Source: an uncultured Gammaproteobacteria bacterium
GTDB taxonomy: Bacteria > Pseudomonadota > Gammaproteobacteria > GCA-002705445 > GCA-002716945
DNA length: 35,000 bases
NCBI GenBank assembly: GCA_902521725.1
Contig: CABYTF010000006.1
Location: 1-35,000, forward strand
Direction of reading: 5' to 3'
Shown here: piece by piece, positions 4,244 to 11,841 of the stretch
How the letters are laid out: the number at the start of each line of letters is the position of its first letter
Position numbering within the stretch: position 1 is the first letter of the stretch
Translations under genes and position numbers: made by a program
Notes under the pieces: model-generated
What the model was told of the DNA's origin: nothing
What the model saw: the letters and a program-made list of their open reading frames with translations, nothing else
Databases searched by the model: none

Positions 4244-5213
4244 TTTTTGAAATATCTCTAGCAACTTTTAATGCTTGAGTAAAACTTGATATGTCAACTT
4301 CACCAGTGCCAACAAGTTCTGTTGCTGTTCCATGATCTACTGAAACCCTTATTATAGGTAATCCAAGAGTTACATTTGTAGTTTTACTAAAGTCATCAAA
4401 TTTTATTACAGGCAAGCCCTGATCATGATACATAGTATGTATCACATCGTACTTACTAATGAATTTCTTAATGAATGCAGTGTCTGCTGGAACAGGTCCG
4501 TCAATTGTTATACCCTTCTTCTTGAGAGACTTTACGGCAGGAATAATGATATCAATTTCCTCCTTTCCGAGAAGCCCATCTTCGCCAGCATGCGGATTAA
4601 TTCCGCATATAAGTATTTTTGGTTTGGTACAACCAAACTTAGACTTAAGGTCCTCATTTATTGTGCATATAGTTTCTATAATTTTACTTTTCGTTATTTC
4701 TTTCGTAATTTTTCTAAGTGGTATATGAATGGTTTGAAGAGTAACTTTGAGCCTATCATTCATTAGCATCATAATTGATTTAGATTTGCAGAGTTTTGCT
4801 AGAAATTCAGTATGACCTGAAATTTTATAACCACCTCTATTCAGTATAGACTTTGATATTGGACCAGTAACCATCGCATCAAAGTCACCTCTCATACAGC
4901 CTTCAGCAGCTGTTTGGATACTGTTAATTACAAATGAGGCATTTCTTGGATCCATGTATCCTGGCTTATTTTTAAATCTTAGCTTGAGGGGATACACGTT
5001 TATCATTCCTAAGCCGCTGACTGTCTTTGACGTTACTGTTTCTAATAGATTAATTTTGATTTTAATCTTGAGTTTTCTTGAGCTATCTAACAGTAGGTTT
5101 GGGTCCGTGATGAATATATGATTACGTGTTATGCACGACTGCGCCATCTTGACACATATATCAGGACCAATACCACCCGGATCTCCTAGAGTTATAGCTA
5201 TTCTCTTACTCAT
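4233..5213 (-). CDS. pdxA: 4-hydroxythreonine-4-phosphate dehydrogenase PdxA
   Basis: A 326-residue NAD-dependent enzyme of the DXP-dependent pyridoxal phosphate pathway. It oxidises 4-phosphohydroxy-L-threonine to an unstable ketone that PdxJ condenses with deoxyxylulose phosphate. Visible signatures are the N-terminal ITLGDPGGIGP, SGHTEFL with a metal-binding His, GINPHAGE with the second His, and MYHDQGLPVIK with the third, followed by the GLPIIRVSVDHGTA segment. The length is normal (E. coli 329). The ATG overlaps the surA stop in an ATGA, indicating translational coupling. The usual order lptD-surA-pdxA-rsmA is kept. Confidence 0.96.
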   Translation of the reverse strand: MSKRIAITLGDPGGIGPDICVKMAQSCITRNHIFITDPNLLLDSSRKLKIKIKINLLETVTSKTVSGLGMINVYPLKLRFKNKPGYMDPRNASFVINSIQTAAEGCMRGDFDAMVTGPISKSILNRGGYKISGHTEFLAKLCKSKSIMMLMNDRLKVTLQTIHIPLRKITKEITKSKIIETICTINEDLKSKFGCTKPKILICGINPHAGEDGLLGKEEIDIIIPAVKSLKKKGITIDGPVPADTAFIKKFISKYDVIHTMYHDQGLPVIKFDDFSKTTNVTLGLPIIRVSVDHGTATELVGTGEVDISSFTQALKVARDISKSAI

Positions 5214-6427
5214 CTGACATATTCGATGTAAGCCTGATCTTTAAGTTTAGCTAGCCACTCTTTTTTGGCTACAGCAACTTTCCTATCTTTTAGTATCGAA
5301 ATTGCTTGATTTCTTCTGATGTTATCTGAGATGTTTTTCATTCTCTTGTCCTCTAAATATAGAATATGCCATCCAAATCTTGTATTGAATGGTTCACTTA
5401 CTTCGCCAACTTTGGTGTTAATCATTACTTTTCTAAAATTCTCCACCACTAGTTCTTTTGTGATCCAGCCAAGAGTCCCTCCTTTGATCGCAGAGGCCTT
5501 ATCTATAGAAAATTCCTCTGCATACCTAGAAAAAGACTCACCATTTTGGACATCTGTTTTAATTTTATAAAAATTATTTTTAATTTCTTTTGGTCCTTTC
5601 ATTGGATTCGTCGACATGAGAATATGACTGACTTTATACTCCTCTACTAAAACATTGCTCTCAAGTACTTGAAGCATAGTGAAACCTTTCCCTGTTTTAA
5701 AAACTCTACTGAACTTATCTTTATCGAGAATTTGGAGATTACTTTGATAGATATCCGGAAGTTTATGTACCTGAATATCTTCTATTGTAGTTGTTTTTAT
5801 ATCGTATGCAGGATATTTTTTTTCTTTATCTTCTAGTCCAGAAGCTTTAAAACCATCAAGTACAATTGTGGCTTGGCTTAGATTTAACTTATGTGTTTTG
5901 TCGGAAATGACGTATTCTTTTATTTTCATCCTGCCGTCAATCTGAGGTAATTCATTATTTTTCAGGAAACTTTCTATCTCTTCATCTGATACATATGCTC
6001 TATTAGTAAATTGTGTTCTGAAAAGCTCTTGTCTTTGTATATTTCTCCTAAGTTGATCAAGATATTTCACATAACTAATATTCTGCTTTTCAACCGCATC
6101 CTTGAGCTGTAGCACAGTTAGACCCTGATTCTTGGCAATTAGCTTGAGACTATTCTGGAGATCGATGTCTGAAATTCTGATACCCATTCTAGAGCTGGCT
6201 TGATCCAAAAGGGATTCTTCAATCAACTGATCTAAGACATTATTTTTTATTTTTGCAAGTTCAATTCTACTCAAATTTTGTATATTAAATTCCTGCATCT
6301 TCTCTTCTAACTCTGATTGCAGTATTACTTTGTCATTTACAATTGCCACGACACTATCTTGTAATGAGTAGCTTGTACTCACTAGCAAGAATAAGATCAT
6401 GAAAAATAGAGATTTGAGTTTATTCAT
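5210..6427 (-). CDS. surA: Periplasmic outer-membrane-protein chaperone SurA
   Basis: SurA escorts unfolded outer membrane proteins, LptD among them, across the periplasm to the BAM complex. I start at the ATG at 6427 (MNKLKSLFF), which gives a 405-residue protein with a standard signal peptide ending near SYS; the upstream in-frame ATG at 6445 would put six polar residues in front. An N-terminal SurA_N region (SVVAIVNDKVILQSELEEKM) is followed by two parvulin-like segments. The second (about 262-362, SHILMST...GGTLGWI...GWHILYLED) keeps the parvulin pattern. The first is degenerate, with no recognisable catalytic pattern. The gene overlaps the lptD stop by 8 bases and pdxA by 4 (ATGA), so the three are coupled. 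Confidence 0.95.
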   Translation of the reverse strand: MNKLKSLFFMILFLLVSTSYSLQDSVVAIVNDKVILQSELEEKMQEFNIQNLSRIELAKIKNNVLDQLIEESLLDQASSRMGIRISDIDLQNSLKLIAKNQGLTVLQLKDAVEKQNISYVKYLDQLRRNIQRQELFRTQFTNRAYVSDEEIESFLKNNELPQIDGRMKIKEYVISDKTHKLNLSQATIVLDGFKASGLEDKEKKYPAYDIKTTTIEDIQVHKLPDIYQSNLQILDKDKFSRVFKTGKGFTMLQVLESNVLVEEYKVSHILMSTNPMKGPKEIKNNFYKIKTDVQNGESFSRYAEEFSIDKASAIKGGTLGWITKELVVENFRKVMINTKVGEVSEPFNTRFGWHILYLEDKRMKNISDNIRRNQAISILKDRKVAVAKKEWLAKLKDQAYIEYVR

Positions 6428-9116
6428 AATCTGTTCGATCCTCATAACCGAAAATCCCTCTTCTTAGTAATGCGGCTGTCTTATTATTTGTTGTCGTCAA
6501 ACCTTTAGGCAAGAACTCAATGAATAAAGCATTATCTTTCTTCGTTCCCGTCCAATAATCCCTGGCTACAATTTTAAGTGAATAACAACAACTATCATAT
6601 TCTATACCAGCCATTGTATCGATTAAATCCTCTGTACCTCTTCTACTATTGGAGAACGAGTAGTTATATTTCCCAATTATAGAAAATTGAGTATTAAAAG
6701 AGTAAACTCCGGATAAGTCTATTTCTTCACCATTGCCACGAAAATATCTGTAATCAGCATTAAATAATTTATTCATCGAACTAGAGCTATCATTATATCT
6801 ATATCTTATATTATTTCTCATCCCATGACCTTTGTGCGGGTTCCACACTGATCCAACGGATAGTGATGAATTACTACTTAATTTAGTAGTCATGAGGCCT
6901 ATGATATTTGAAGCATCAGAATGAGATTTTGTATTATCTGTCAAATGAACATCTCTGTCATCGAAGTATATTATCTGACCAATTGTTCCAGTGAATAATT
7001 CATCACCTGAACTTTCATCTATTATTTTATGAGTTAGAGCTAGAGACATCTGTTTTGCATCATTGAGTCTATCTTCACCATGAAATTTATTCTCTGATAG
7101 CAAGGAATATTTAAATTCTTTTAGGCCAGTGTCGAATAAAGGATTGCCATCTTGGTTACCAACTGGGATATATAATAAGTACGCCTCTGGCTCTAATGTG
7201 TAGAGTTTATCTCCAACAAATTTATCAAAATATAGTTTTCCGCGAAGACTAGCTATTGCAGTCGTCTTAGATTTTGCATCCGTAGCATTGTTATCAATAC
7301 TATAGTCAATATACCTAATACCAAATTTAGAGGTGACTTCCCATCCGTCTGTAAGTAATGGCAATTCAATACTCGGATATATTAAATACCTTGTTCCTTG
7401 GACTAGAGAGTCATCATTGTGTTCGAACTTATCGATGGTAGCCTTCATGTTGTAGCTAAATTCAGAGCTATTCTTGTTTTTGTAATTAAATTTGAATGAA
7501 GGCACAGTTTCGTACTGCTCAGTAACGCCGATTGTAGAGGGTTGATAGGATAGCGAAGATAGCTCATAACTATAAATATTTTCATCTGTGTATGTCTCAC
7601 CAAATAATCTGAAATCTCTTTTTACACTAGACTGACTAACTGTGCTAAGAGAATTTCCAAAATCATTAAAGTAATCTCTATCAGATACTCTGCTATATGA
7701 AATATCGCTTTTGATGATAGATCCGATTAATCCACCATTATTGCTTACAAGAGTGTTGTATAAAGTTCTATCATCGTCAATTTTGTAAATATATCTGTCA
7801 TCACCGTATTCATCATCATTTTCTAGGTATGCAAAATTTATCGAATTTCTTGTCTGATTGTGTCCTAAATACCGGAATTCATTATCAAACAATACACCTC
7901 GATCGCTAAGAGATGTAATTTCAATAGTTGCGTCATAATTTTCAGCTAAATTAAAGTAGTATGGTATGGATAAAGCTGTCCCGCTATCCCCAGAAGAACC
8001 AAAAGAAGGTGTTAGAATTCCTGACTGTCTTTTATCTGTCAAAGGATAACTCATGAAAGGCGAGTAAAAAATTGGAATATTTTTATATTTAAGAAACATA
8101 TTATATGAGTGACCCCTCTCATCTTTGTCAAAAAGCTTAGTCGAAGTTGAAGTAAGTTCCCAATCGGGATCGTTTACGTTACATGCCGTATATGTAGCAT
8201 TCTCGAGATAAATATCTTTATTTTCTTTCACAATAATTTTCTTGGATAGTCCAGCGCCTGAATTTTTACTTCTATAATACGTAGCTTTAGAAAATGTGAT
8301 ATCACTCTTCATACCTTGGTATTCAGCAGATTCAGAATATACTGAAAGCTCCTCATTAAAATAACCAACATTACCAGATGCTGAGACATTTTTTGTATCT
8401 GTAAAATATTTAATTTTATCTGCTTTTAGCATGTCACGCTGTCTTTCGGCCTCAGCATTTCCCTCCGCAAGAAACTCCTCTCCAGTCTGACTTTGACTGT
8501 CAGCTCTGATCTCAAGTGTGGATTCATCAGATATTACTAATGTTTTTACATCATCAAAAGTCTCAAAAGTATTTGATATACAAACGCCTAACTCCTCGTC
8601 AAGGTAATCATTATTTTGAAGAGAGACTGTTATTACTCTGTCTCTCGAAATGTTCTCATCACCCTCATTAAACTTAATGATAGGTACATCAGAAATATCT
8701 AGCTGAGAGTTTTCAGTTTCACCAAACTTTTTATAAGTTATCTGATCTACTACAATTTCAAATACCTTCTCATTTTTAAATACCACCGTAAGATTTTTGA
8801 TTTCTTTCGAATCCAGGTTGTTATAGTAGTAGTAATTCCAGTGATCATCATTGAAAGGGCTAGAAGTAGGTACTCCCAGAAGGAATTTAACTTGTTCTCT
8901 TGATAAACCAATATCAAGTTGCCTAAAATTTTTTACTTCCACAAGACGACCTTGCTCAAGAGGTATAATGTAAGGCTTTATCTCGTTAATTGATAGTGTT
9001 TCTTGTAAGCCTTTTTGAACTCCACTTATGAAATCCATCATGCCCGGATGAGCCGGTGATGAGAGCAATACTAGGAATGCTGCCAAGAAGTATCTTATAT
9101 AACTAGTTAGAACCAT
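6420..9116 (-). CDS. lptD: LPS-assembly protein LptD with N-terminal BamE-like domain
   Basis: LptD is the outer membrane barrel that, with LptE, inserts lipopolysaccharide into the outer leaflet. This one has 898 residues against 784 in E. coli. Order: signal peptide (about 1-24, no lipobox), a BamE/SmpA-like domain (about 50-124), a linker, the LptA-like jelly roll (about 195-300: TLEIRADSQSQTGEEFLAEG...ADKIKYF), and a 26-strand-type barrel with PIFYSPFMSYPLTDKRQSGIL. The four disulfide cysteines are present: C179, C312 and the pair C843-C844. Their spacing (133 and 531 residues) closely matches E. coli C31, C173, C724 and C725 (142 and 551). About 150 residues have therefore been added before the first cysteine. 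The ATG is 8 bases after an extended -10 box. Confidence 0.95.
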   Translation of the reverse strand: MVLTSYIRYFLAAFLVLLSSPAHPGMMDFISGVQKGLQETLSINEIKPYIIPLEQGRLVEVKNFRQLDIGLSREQVKFLLGVPTSSPFNDDHWNYYYYNNLDSKEIKNLTVVFKNEKVFEIVVDQITYKKFGETENSQLDISDVPIIKFNEGDENISRDRVITVSLQNNDYLDEELGVCISNTFETFDDVKTLVISDESTLEIRADSQSQTGEEFLAEGNAEAERQRDMLKADKIKYFTDTKNVSASGNVGYFNEELSVYSESAEYQGMKSDITFSKATYYRSKNSGAGLSKKIIVKENKDIYLENATYTACNVNDPDWELTSTSTKLFDKDERGHSYNMFLKYKNIPIFYSPFMSYPLTDKRQSGILTPSFGSSGDSGTALSIPYYFNLAENYDATIEITSLSDRGVLFDNEFRYLGHNQTRNSINFAYLENDDEYGDDRYIYKIDDDRTLYNTLVSNNGGLIGSIIKSDISYSRVSDRDYFNDFGNSLSTVSQSSVKRDFRLFGETYTDENIYSYELSSLSYQPSTIGVTEQYETVPSFKFNYKNKNSSEFSYNMKATIDKFEHNDDSLVQGTRYLIYPSIELPLLTDGWEVTSKFGIRYIDYSIDNNATDAKSKTTAIASLRGKLYFDKFVGDKLYTLEPEAYLLYIPVGNQDGNPLFDTGLKEFKYSLLSENKFHGEDRLNDAKQMSLALTHKIIDESSGDELFTGTIGQIIYFDDRDVHLTDNTKSHSDASNIIGLMTTKLSSNSSLSVGSVWNPHKGHGMRNNIRYRYNDSSSSMNKLFNADYRYFRGNGEEIDLSGVYSFNTQFSIIGKYNYSFSNSRRGTEDLIDTMAGIEYDSCCYSLKIVARDYWTGTKKDNALFIEFLPKGLTTTNNKTAALLRRGIFGYEDRTDYE
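8745..8969 (-). other. BamE (SmpA/OmlA)-like domain within LptD
   Basis: Residues about 50-124 of the LptD ORF fit the SmpA/OmlA (BamE) fold pattern. QG at 55-56 follows a hydrophobic stretch. IGLSREQVKFLLGVP (69-83) matches the family's vGMtkeQVxxlLGtP. PFNDDHWNYYYYNN (87-100) matches dpFhxxrWxYvy. KNLTVVF...VFEI (107-121) matches the closing beta strands. BamE is normally a separate small lipoprotein of the outer membrane BAM complex. Here the lipobox cysteine is absent and the domain is continuous in frame with LptD. Confidence 0.82.
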
Positions 9117-9158: not shown

Positions 9159-9800
9159 TCACTTTTTTATGATTGAGATAATTTCGTCAGTTAGTCTTTG
9201 AGGACCATCTTCGCCACCTATTATTCTATGGAGAACACCTTTTCCTTTATAGAAGTCAATGATTGGTTCAGTTTGCTCCGCATAGACCTTAAGACGATTT
9301 GACACAGTCTCTTCATTATCATCAGCCCTTTTAACAAAAACACCCTCGCCGCACTTATCTCCTTCTCTAAAATCCGAAAAATACTCATTTTCTATTTTTC
9401 CACAAGTATTGCAAGTTATACGACCTACACATCTTTTAATTATCAAATCGGTCGGAACATCGATGAGAAAGACATATTCTATTGAGAGGTTGAGGTCACC
9501 TAGTAATCTATCCAGGCTTGAAGCTTGAGATAAGTTTCTTGGAAATCCATCGAGTATAAAACCATTTTTGCAGTCATCAGAGGTGATTTTTTTTGAGACT
9601 AATTTAAGTACTATATCATCACTTACAAACTTTCCTGCTGACATAATGCTTTTTAGCTCCTGCCCTATCTTTGATGCAGATGCTGTCTCAGCCCGTAGTA
9701 GATCTCCAGTGGATATTTGAGGAATATTAAATTTTTCTTCGATGTTTTTTGATTGTGTCCCTTTTCCTGAACCTGGTGCTCCTAAAAAAAGTATATTCAT
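9159..9800 (-). CDS. adk: Adenylate kinase
   Basis: Adk interconverts ATP + AMP and 2 ADP in the cytoplasm. The start is the ATG at 9800, fixed by the strong AGGAGA six bases upstream; the open frame extends 14 codons further but that part has no homology. The 213-residue protein has the P-loop GAPGSGKGT (7-15), STGDLLR, the AMP-binding DGFPR (84-88) and the LID. The LID is of the cysteine type, with C130, C133 and C150 but no fourth cysteine (C150-G-E-G). E. coli Adk has no such cysteines. The gene lies 25 bases behind hppA, which yields the pyrophosphate-hydrolysing partner in nucleotide metabolism, and is probably co-transcribed with it. Confidence 0.96.
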   Translation of the reverse strand: MNILFLGAPGSGKGTQSKNIEEKFNIPQISTGDLLRAETASASKIGQELKSIMSAGKFVSDDIVLKLVSKKITSDDCKNGFILDGFPRNLSQASSLDRLLGDLNLSIEYVFLIDVPTDLIIKRCVGRITCNTCGKIENEYFSDFREGDKCGEGVFVKRADDNEETVSNRLKVYAEQTEPIIDFYKGKGVLHRIIGGEDGPQRLTDEIISIIKK

Positions 9801-9806
9801 TTTTTG

Positions 9807-9812
9807 TCTCCT
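9807..9812 (-). promoter_or_regulatory. Shine-Dalgarno sequence deciding the adk start
   Basis: AGGAGA on the minus strand, six bases before the ATG at 9800. It is among the best ribosome-binding sites in the window and settles the start. Confidence 0.8.
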
Positions 9813-9825
9813 AACGATATTTAAT

Positions 9826-11841
9826 TTATAACAGGGGAGCAATTACAAGGCTTACGATTGCCATTACATTTATTAAAATATTCATTGATGGTCCTGAAGT
9901 GTCTTTGAGAGGATCACCCACAGTATCACCTACAACTGCAGCTTTATGTGTGTCTGACCCTTTGCCACCAAAATTACCCTTCTCGACAAATTTTTTTGCA
10001 TTATCCCAAGCACCACCAGAATTTGACATTGTCAGGGCGAGAAGAATACAGCTAACAAGACCACCACCAAGAAGACCACCTAGCATCTCTGGTCCAAATA
10101 GAAACCCAACAATAACAGGTGAAAAAACAGCTATTGCACCAGGCATAACCATCTTCTTCAAAGCCGCACCAGTTGCAATTTCTACACACTTTTGATTATC
10201 GGGTTTTCCAGTACCCTCGAGTAAGCCAGGTATCTCCCTAAATTGTCTTCTAATTTCATTGATCATGCTATAAGCCGCATCACCCACAGCAGTAATAGTT
10301 AGAGACCCAACGAGAAATGGAATCATACCCCCAATAAATAAGCCGATGAGTACATTCGTGTCTGTCAGAAGCAACTGAATTGGCTCTTGTCGACTATGGT
10401 TTACCTCTTGTACAAACGCAGTGATAATTGCAAGTGCTGCCAACGCTGCGGCACCAATTGCAAATCCTTTTCCTATTGCTGCGGTTGTATTGCCAACCTC
10501 ATCTAAGCTATCAGTAATTTTCCTAGTTTCTTCCCCTAAAGCACCCATTTCTGCAATCCCCCCTGCGTTATCAGCTATCGGACCATATGCATCTATTGCC
10601 ATTGTTATTCCAACAGTTGCTAGCATACCAACAGCTGCAATCCCGACTCCATATAGTCCTGCAAAATAATTAGACAAGAAAATGATTACCACTAGTGTTA
10701 GAACTGGGACAACAACTGATTGGAGGCCGATTGATAGACCAGTAGTTATTACAGTAGCCGACCCTGTTTGACCTTGTTCAGCAATTTTTCTAACAGGGGC
10801 ACCACCAGTGTAATATTCGGTAACAAGACCAATAATAATTCCTCCAACCGTTCCAGAGAGCACCGCGTACCATGCATTTTCTGTCACGCCTAAAGATATA
10901 ATGACAAAGTATGCCAGGACTATGAATGAAATTGCTGAAGCAAACGTTCCCCCTCTGAGAGAATTTGCAATATTTGTCTCATTACTGCCCTGTCTTGAAG
11001 CTAAGATCTTAATGATCAATATCCCAATTATTGAACAGAATAATCCAAGAGAAGCAAGTGCAAGAGGAAGTGACATGAGTATTTCCCTTGACCCGAGTTG
11101 AATCAAATCAGATTGTAGCATGGTTGATGCTATTGCTATTGTTGCAATTATTGCTCCGCAATATGACTCAAATATATCTGAACCCATGCCTGCGACGTCT
11201 CCCACGTTATCTCCAACATTATCTGCTATGACGCCTGGATTTCTTGGGTCATCCTCTGGAATATCTTTCTCTACTTTACCAACTAGATCTGCGCCAACAT
11301 CAGCAGACTTTGTAAAAATTCCGCCACCAACTCTGGAGAATAATGCTACGGTTGATGCTCCCATTCCAAAACCATGAATCGTTGATGCTGTTGCGGGATC
11401 AGAGCCATATAGGATATACAAGAGCCCCAGACCAAGTAAACCCATGGCTGCCACAGTAAGACCCATTATTGATCCACCGAAGAATGCAACTGATAAACTG
11501 TCACTGACACCTGAATTTTGTGCGGCTGTGGCTGTCCTCACATTTGCTTTTGTAGCTGTGTACATGCCAATAAAGCCAGTTATGGAGGAACTTAACGCAC
11601 CAACAATAAATGCTATGGTGCTACTTAATCCAAGTCCTATATATATCCCGAAAACTAGTATGAGAGAGAATACAAAAAGTATGGAATATTCTTTTTTCAT
11701 GAACGCCATTGCGCCAAGATGTATCTCATCAGAGATATCTGTTAAGTTTTTCTCTCCGGCAGGATATTTTTTTACTTGGGCATAGAGCAGATATGCTGCT
11801 AGTAGACCAGAAAAGCCTAATATTATCGGTACTAAATTCAT
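9826..11841 (-). CDS. hppA: Membrane-bound ion-pumping pyrophosphatase HppA
   Basis: A 671-residue, roughly 16-span integral membrane enzyme that couples hydrolysis of pyrophosphate to export of H+ or Na+. Substrate-binding motifs [11 protein letters not shown] (181-191), [22 protein letters not shown] (207-220) and the C-terminal [19 protein letters not shown] are intact. The motif [10 protein letters not shown] (450-459) has Ala at 454 and Gly at 457, where K+-independent enzymes have Lys and Thr, so this should be a K+-dependent type. That group includes H+-, Na+- and dual pumps; the ion cannot be decided by eye. The ATG has GGTGA six bases upstream. It is divergent from mrdA and leads adk. 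Confidence 0.95.

Follow-up and report, generated by a model that had tools for sequence, protein, structure and literature searches.

A BamE-family domain fused to the N-terminus of LptD in an order of Gammaproteobacteria

The lptD gene of an uncultured gammaproteobacterium (contig CABYTF010000006.1; the window is the whole stretch of DNA analysed, 35,000 nucleotides, positions 1 to 35,000) codes for a protein with about 150 extra residues between its signal peptide and its first cysteine. This raises the question of what the additional block is, how it came to stand in front of LptD, and what it could be doing there. The gene order lptD-surA-pdxA-rsmA is the usual one, and the features of the locus relevant to the question are the following:
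5210..6445, minus strand: surA, which follows lptD and overlaps its end
6420..9116, minus strand: lptD gene, coding for the BamE-LptD fusion (898 aa) in one uninterrupted frame
6585..6590, minus strand: LptD Cys3-Cys4 pair, residues 843-844
6708..7727, minus strand: PF04453 LptD match (hmmscan), barrel domain, residues 464-803
8181..8183, minus strand: LptD Cys2, residue 312
8580..8582, minus strand: LptD Cys1, residue 179
8583..8747, minus strand: BamE-LptD tether, residues 124-178, 55 aa, predicted disordered
8751..8978, minus strand: BamE domain, residues about 47-122 (Pfam core, residues 56-120, at 8757-8951)
9045..9116, minus strand: Sec signal peptide, residues about 1-24, without a lipobox cysteine, the sole signal sequence of the fusion
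9159..9842, minus strand: adk, upstream of lptD on the same strand

Along the protein, the signal peptide is followed by a short spacer, the BamE domain, the tether, Cys1 and then the jellyroll and barrel of LptD, and this layout agrees with the clean insertion proposed in a preliminary description of the locus. No second hydrophobic segment was found between the BamE and LptD parts, and since there is a single signal sequence, LptD can enter the periplasm only with the BamE domain at its front. The LptD part itself is recognised by PF04453 (180 bits, E 1.1e-52) and by NCBIfam LptD models, which match from residue 196-200 onward, while the jellyroll model PF03968 reaches 15.2 bits, below its cut-off of 20.4. 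Comparison of the cysteines (179, 312, 843 and 844, versus 31, 173, 724 and 725 in E. coli) shows that the E. coli spacing is nearly kept, as had been noted, and the order C1, C2, C3-C4 is common to all complete relatives. As regards the neighbouring SurA (5210-6445, minus strand), a clear PPIase (Rotamase) domain is found only at the PPIase-2 position (274-366), with no match for PPIase-1 passing E 0.001; PPIase-2 is the part of SurA for which contact with BamE has been proposed (PMC13067283).

The BamE part was identified by both sequence and predicted fold. PF04355 (BamE) matches residues 56-120 of the complete frame (hmmscan, E 8.8e-12, 45.1 bits, cut-off 23.2), the N-terminal part alone scores 48.2 bits against the same model and cut-off, and the NCBIfam BamE model matches residues 53-118. 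When the N-terminal part is searched with phmmer against all sequences in the PDB, the best matches are BamE/OmlA (2pxg with E 5e-10; 5wam, 9cmw), with E. coli BamE at E about 1e-3. A profile of the N-termini from the whole order reaches E 5e-21 against the PDB sequences, and nearly all of its other matches are BamE. The AlphaFold2 model of the N-terminal region (22 sequences) consists of two helices followed by three long strands, with a core pLDDT of about 80-90. BamE chains come top when it is searched with Foldseek (5wam with E 4.4e-5; chains E of E. coli BAM structures), and give Z 7-8.7 with VIA-align, where a Z near 8 is modest alone and the sequence agrees; the related TpgA and BLIP folds rank below the BamE chains. 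Judging from these matches and from the modelled fold, the block at about residues 47-122 is homologous to BamE and does not merely resemble it, which upholds the assignment first made for residues 50-124 (8745-8969). None of the fused proteins has a lipobox within its first 45 residues, and the lipobox cysteine is found in nearly all correctly read stand-alone BamEs of the outgroup. As the domain agrees with BamE in sequence and fold and not as a lipoprotein, we refer to it as a BamE-family domain rather than as a canonical BamE lipoprotein.

The order to which the window belongs, made up of marine bacteria with tiny genomes (mostly 0.7-1.2 Mb), was sampled with 25 genomes from a single family and six genera. 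PF04355 has matches in 24 of them, always in LptD frames (45.7-81 bits in the relatives), and every LptD found in the order, across all six genera and in both single-cell and metagenome assemblies, is a fusion. The named relatives include the single-cell genomes AG-349-E17, AG-461-I20 and AG-390-N19, as well as MAGs from many projects. The sole genome without BamE (G008) is also without LptD in its assembly, and no other PF04355 match, which would indicate a second or free BamE, was found in any of the 25 genomes. The fusion frame runs off the contig end in G012 and in one of the copies from G021. In two genomes the gene is broken, by a frameshift in the tether (G006, L069) or by a stop in the LptD part about 58 residues after Cys1 (G011, L063); sequencing error is the likely cause, since both assemblies are incomplete (69-70%). 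The resulting frames of 145 aa (G006) and 263 aa (G011) were rejected as free BamEs, being interrupted fusions alongside which LptD continues, and the two BamE matches in G021 were likewise rejected as evidence of a separate BamE, both being LptD fusions on short contigs, probably from mixed strains.

Outside the order, the two families are found apart. A full-length profile of the fusion, searched against 57 relatives, gives a single match from about 3 to 903 in each complete member of the order, and in the other 32 families either BamE and LptD matches at separate places or one of them alone. In a survey of 370 genomes of the class, five of the LptDs among the best ~150 matches listed start at profile position 3-5, all of them from this order, and the other LptDs listed start at position 154 or later; weak, distant fusions could lie beyond these best ~150. 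A 912-aa frame in G376 with a strong BamE match was rejected as a second fusion, as it consists of an ordinary small BamE lipoprotein preceded by an open frame in GC-rich sequence. PF04355 is unmatched at E 1e-5 in 28 of 369 gammaproteobacterial genomes, some of which are more than 95% complete; loss of free BamE is thus probable in other lineages as well, with no fusion seen there.

In the rest of the class, BamE occurs as a small lipoprotein whose gene usually lies beside fur and ratB: bamE adjoins fur in 19 of 23 outgroup loci, and ratB/ratA are commonly found on the other side. In three genera of the order (represented by G000, G009 and G010), ratA, ratB and fur are contiguous without bamE, at what we take to be the empty ancestral site:
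2245-3468 of L144: ratA-ratB-fur without bamE
2866-4092 of L145: ratA-ratB-fur without bamE
1795-2918 of L146: ratA-ratB-fur without bamE
The genes were identified by Pfam in G000 and G009, and by frame sizes and order around a RatB match in G010. The suggestion that the fused domain might replace free BamE is supported by these results, the order's genomes having no other PF04355 match and the bamE slot being empty in the three examined. A single move of bamE into lptD, earlier than the diversification of the order, is the most parsimonious account. The partners of BamE have been kept in most genomes: BamD and BamC are each present in 24 of 25, and BamA-type POTRA repeats in 23 of 25, with those missing in G000 and G006 probably accounted for by contig gaps. 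LptE was found in 22 of the 25 genomes (above the cut-off in 20; in G000 it adjoins leuS and scores 21.6 bits, just below the cut-off), and its presence led us to reject the fused BamE as an LptE substitute.

The explanation that we favour, with modest confidence, is that bamE moved once into lptD, and that LptD carries the cell's BamE, which docks on BamA and BamD. In the ancestor of the order, bamE would have left its site beside fur/ratB and its product would have become a domain between the LptD signal peptide and the first cysteine. This domain is the sole BamE found in these genomes and lacks a lipid anchor; after insertion of LptD it would be anchored to the outer membrane by the LptD barrel, via a flexible tether of 53-56 residues. 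It would still dock on POTRA5 of BamA and on BamD, acting first in cis, while LptD slowly folds on BAM, and possibly later in trans from mature LptD, so that the LPS translocon and BAM would be connected physically. Of this account, the fusion and its conservation, the single copy, the empty site, the missing lipobox, the purifying selection and the presence of BamA, BamC, BamD and LptE in most genomes were observed directly, and the docking, the cis and trans action and the coupling of the machines are inferred. Such docking is compatible with what is known of the components: BamE contacts BamA POTRA5 and BamD, helping to align them (PMC13067283), stalled E. coli LptDE co-purifies BamD and BamE (PMC10567701), and LptD, which according to the literature is handled by BamA/BamD, is an unusually slow client, its folding taking orders of magnitude longer than that of other barrels (PMC6887485). 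The main evidence against it is the loss of residue N36, described below, and the reported dispensability of BamE for LptE/LptD assembly in E. coli (PMC6529637), which also weakens the simple idea of an assembly aid. In the full-length AlphaFold2 model (19 sequences, pTM 0.41) no fixed docking is seen, and the model is too poor to place the domain on LptD. A more far-reaching form, in which mature LptD is a stable part of BAM or its permanent docking partner, the two machines would be one physical unit and BamE-dependent BAM function would need assembled LptD, is possible in our view and somewhat doubtful.

The fused BamE could also dock on BAM solely while its own LptD chain folds, a slow and disulfide-controlled process, and speed or proofread LptD-LptE assembly, with the other porins being built by BAM without BamE. 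With BamE fused to a single client, there are only as many copies of it as of LptD, few in comparison with porins, and surA is the next gene; both would suit a module acting only in cis, as would the slow folding of LptD and its handling by BamA/BamD. We nevertheless consider this rather unlikely, as LptD/LptE assembly in E. coli is unaffected by Delta-bamE, and nothing in the sequence limits the action of the domain to cis.

Mean identity between relatives is 55% for the BamE block, 58% for the jellyroll, 60% for the barrel and 30% for the tether, which evolves faster than both the BamE domain and the jellyroll. For moderately diverged pairs, the BamE domain has a dN of about 0.07-0.16 and a dS close to 1 or higher, much as the LptD jellyroll does, and by this codon-level measure the domain is under purifying selection. 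The residues were compared between the fused forms, 22 stand-alone BamEs and E. coli BamE, in a sequence that agrees with the residue numbers of the mutant table cited below. The fused forms keep Q34, G35, G49, Q54, G60, P62, F68, W73, Y75 and F95. Changes at 22 non-lipid positions are known to impair E. coli BamE (Knowles 2011, tabulated in PMC10135246); six of these (Q34, G35, F68, W73, Y75 and F95) are unchanged in every fused copy, and at about ten others a similar hydrophobic residue is retained. Other positions have changed: N36 of the “QGN” motif, which is Asn in 21 of the 22 stand-alone BamEs, has been replaced in the fused copies with a single exception, M50 is Leu in the fused forms, and the C20 lipidation site is gone. 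D66 is kept outside the window's genus, which has lost D66, D74 and mostly R72. Changes at N36, D66 and C20 raise vancomycin sensitivity in E. coli (PMC10135246). The comparison indicates a maintained fold, the loss of lipidation and a change in part of the conserved surface. The BamE-domain scores are also lower in the window's genus (46-60 bits, versus 61-81 bits in the other five genera), which, together with the lost D66, D74 and mostly R72, suggests that in this genus the domain may be loosening or switching to another partner.

These losses would fit a domain exapted to LPS export, which acts in the Lpt bridge (by docking LptA, or by binding phospholipid or peptidoglycan so as to position LptD) and not on BAM: near-invariant N36 and lipidation are lost, divergence is greater in the window's genus, and the conserved length of the tether suggests a spatial role. 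Such a change of function is nevertheless improbable given the strong conservation of the core BamE positions and the retention of BamD and BamC, and the retained LptE speaks against a role as its substitute.

The tether is 53-56 residues long in every measurable relative, despite the drift of its sequence, and the spacer before BamE varies in length, placing the QG at residue 53 to 78. In G011 (L063, fusion N-terminus at 1991-2776), tandem “ELPDF” repeats lie between the signal peptide and BamE, which shows that the spacer is free to expand and the tether is not. A disordered and variable tether could be cut in the periplasm, yielding a soluble BamE and a normal LptD from a pro-protein, in which case the fusion would merely couple their synthesis. 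This is very improbable, as no conserved cleavage motif is apparent in the tether, the freed BamE would be without a membrane anchor, and a length kept within 53-56 residues would be needless if the tether were cut. An artefact, whether a join of two frames by assembly error, the refutation first envisaged, or a spurious match, can be dismissed given the same architecture in 24 genomes of the order, which come from independent projects and include several single-cell genomes, and the homology in sequence and predicted fold.

Compared with known systems, the fusion shares with BamE (SmpA/OmlA) the PF04355 domain, the predicted alpha-alpha-beta-beta-beta fold, the motif QG...GLxxxQVxxLLGxP...PF...W.Y...F and its status as sole copy in the genome, but BamE is a separate lipoprotein with its gene beside fur and ratB, while the fused form has no lipobox, sits on the 53-56 aa tether and has lost N36. 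It shares with LptD the PF04453 domain, the C...C...CC cysteines, the surA-pdxA-rsmA neighbours and, in most genomes, the LptE partner, but differs by the ~150 residues before Cys1, which are unseen in other LptDs among the class-survey matches listed. LptM (YifL) is likewise a small envelope module tied to LptD at the BAM stage (PMC10567701), though it is a separate lipoprotein without a BamE domain. The N-terminal BamE-like domain of TpgA, the partner of the adhesin AtaA (PDB 9vnj, Foldseek rank 3), is a case of the BamE fold in a larger envelope protein working with an outer-membrane protein; in that case, however, the partner is a trimeric autotransporter, and no fusion joins the domain to its barrel partner. 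No prior description of a BamE-LptD fusion was found in the open-access literature (subscription papers and preprints were outside the search), and it may be that domain databases contain the architecture without remarking on it. Both families were known before; what is new to us is that they are combined and that the free subunit has been lost.

The fusion bears on the question of whether BAM and LPS export by Lpt are coordinated. A natural fusion across the order, together with the loss of free BamE, is Rosetta-stone-type evidence of a functional link between BAM and Lpt, and suggests a physical connection between the two machines in this order. It also shows that BamE, once deprived of its lipid anchor, either can still work or can be done without. 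If the two machines did form a single unit, outer-membrane protein assembly and LPS export, both of them essential, would be joined physically.
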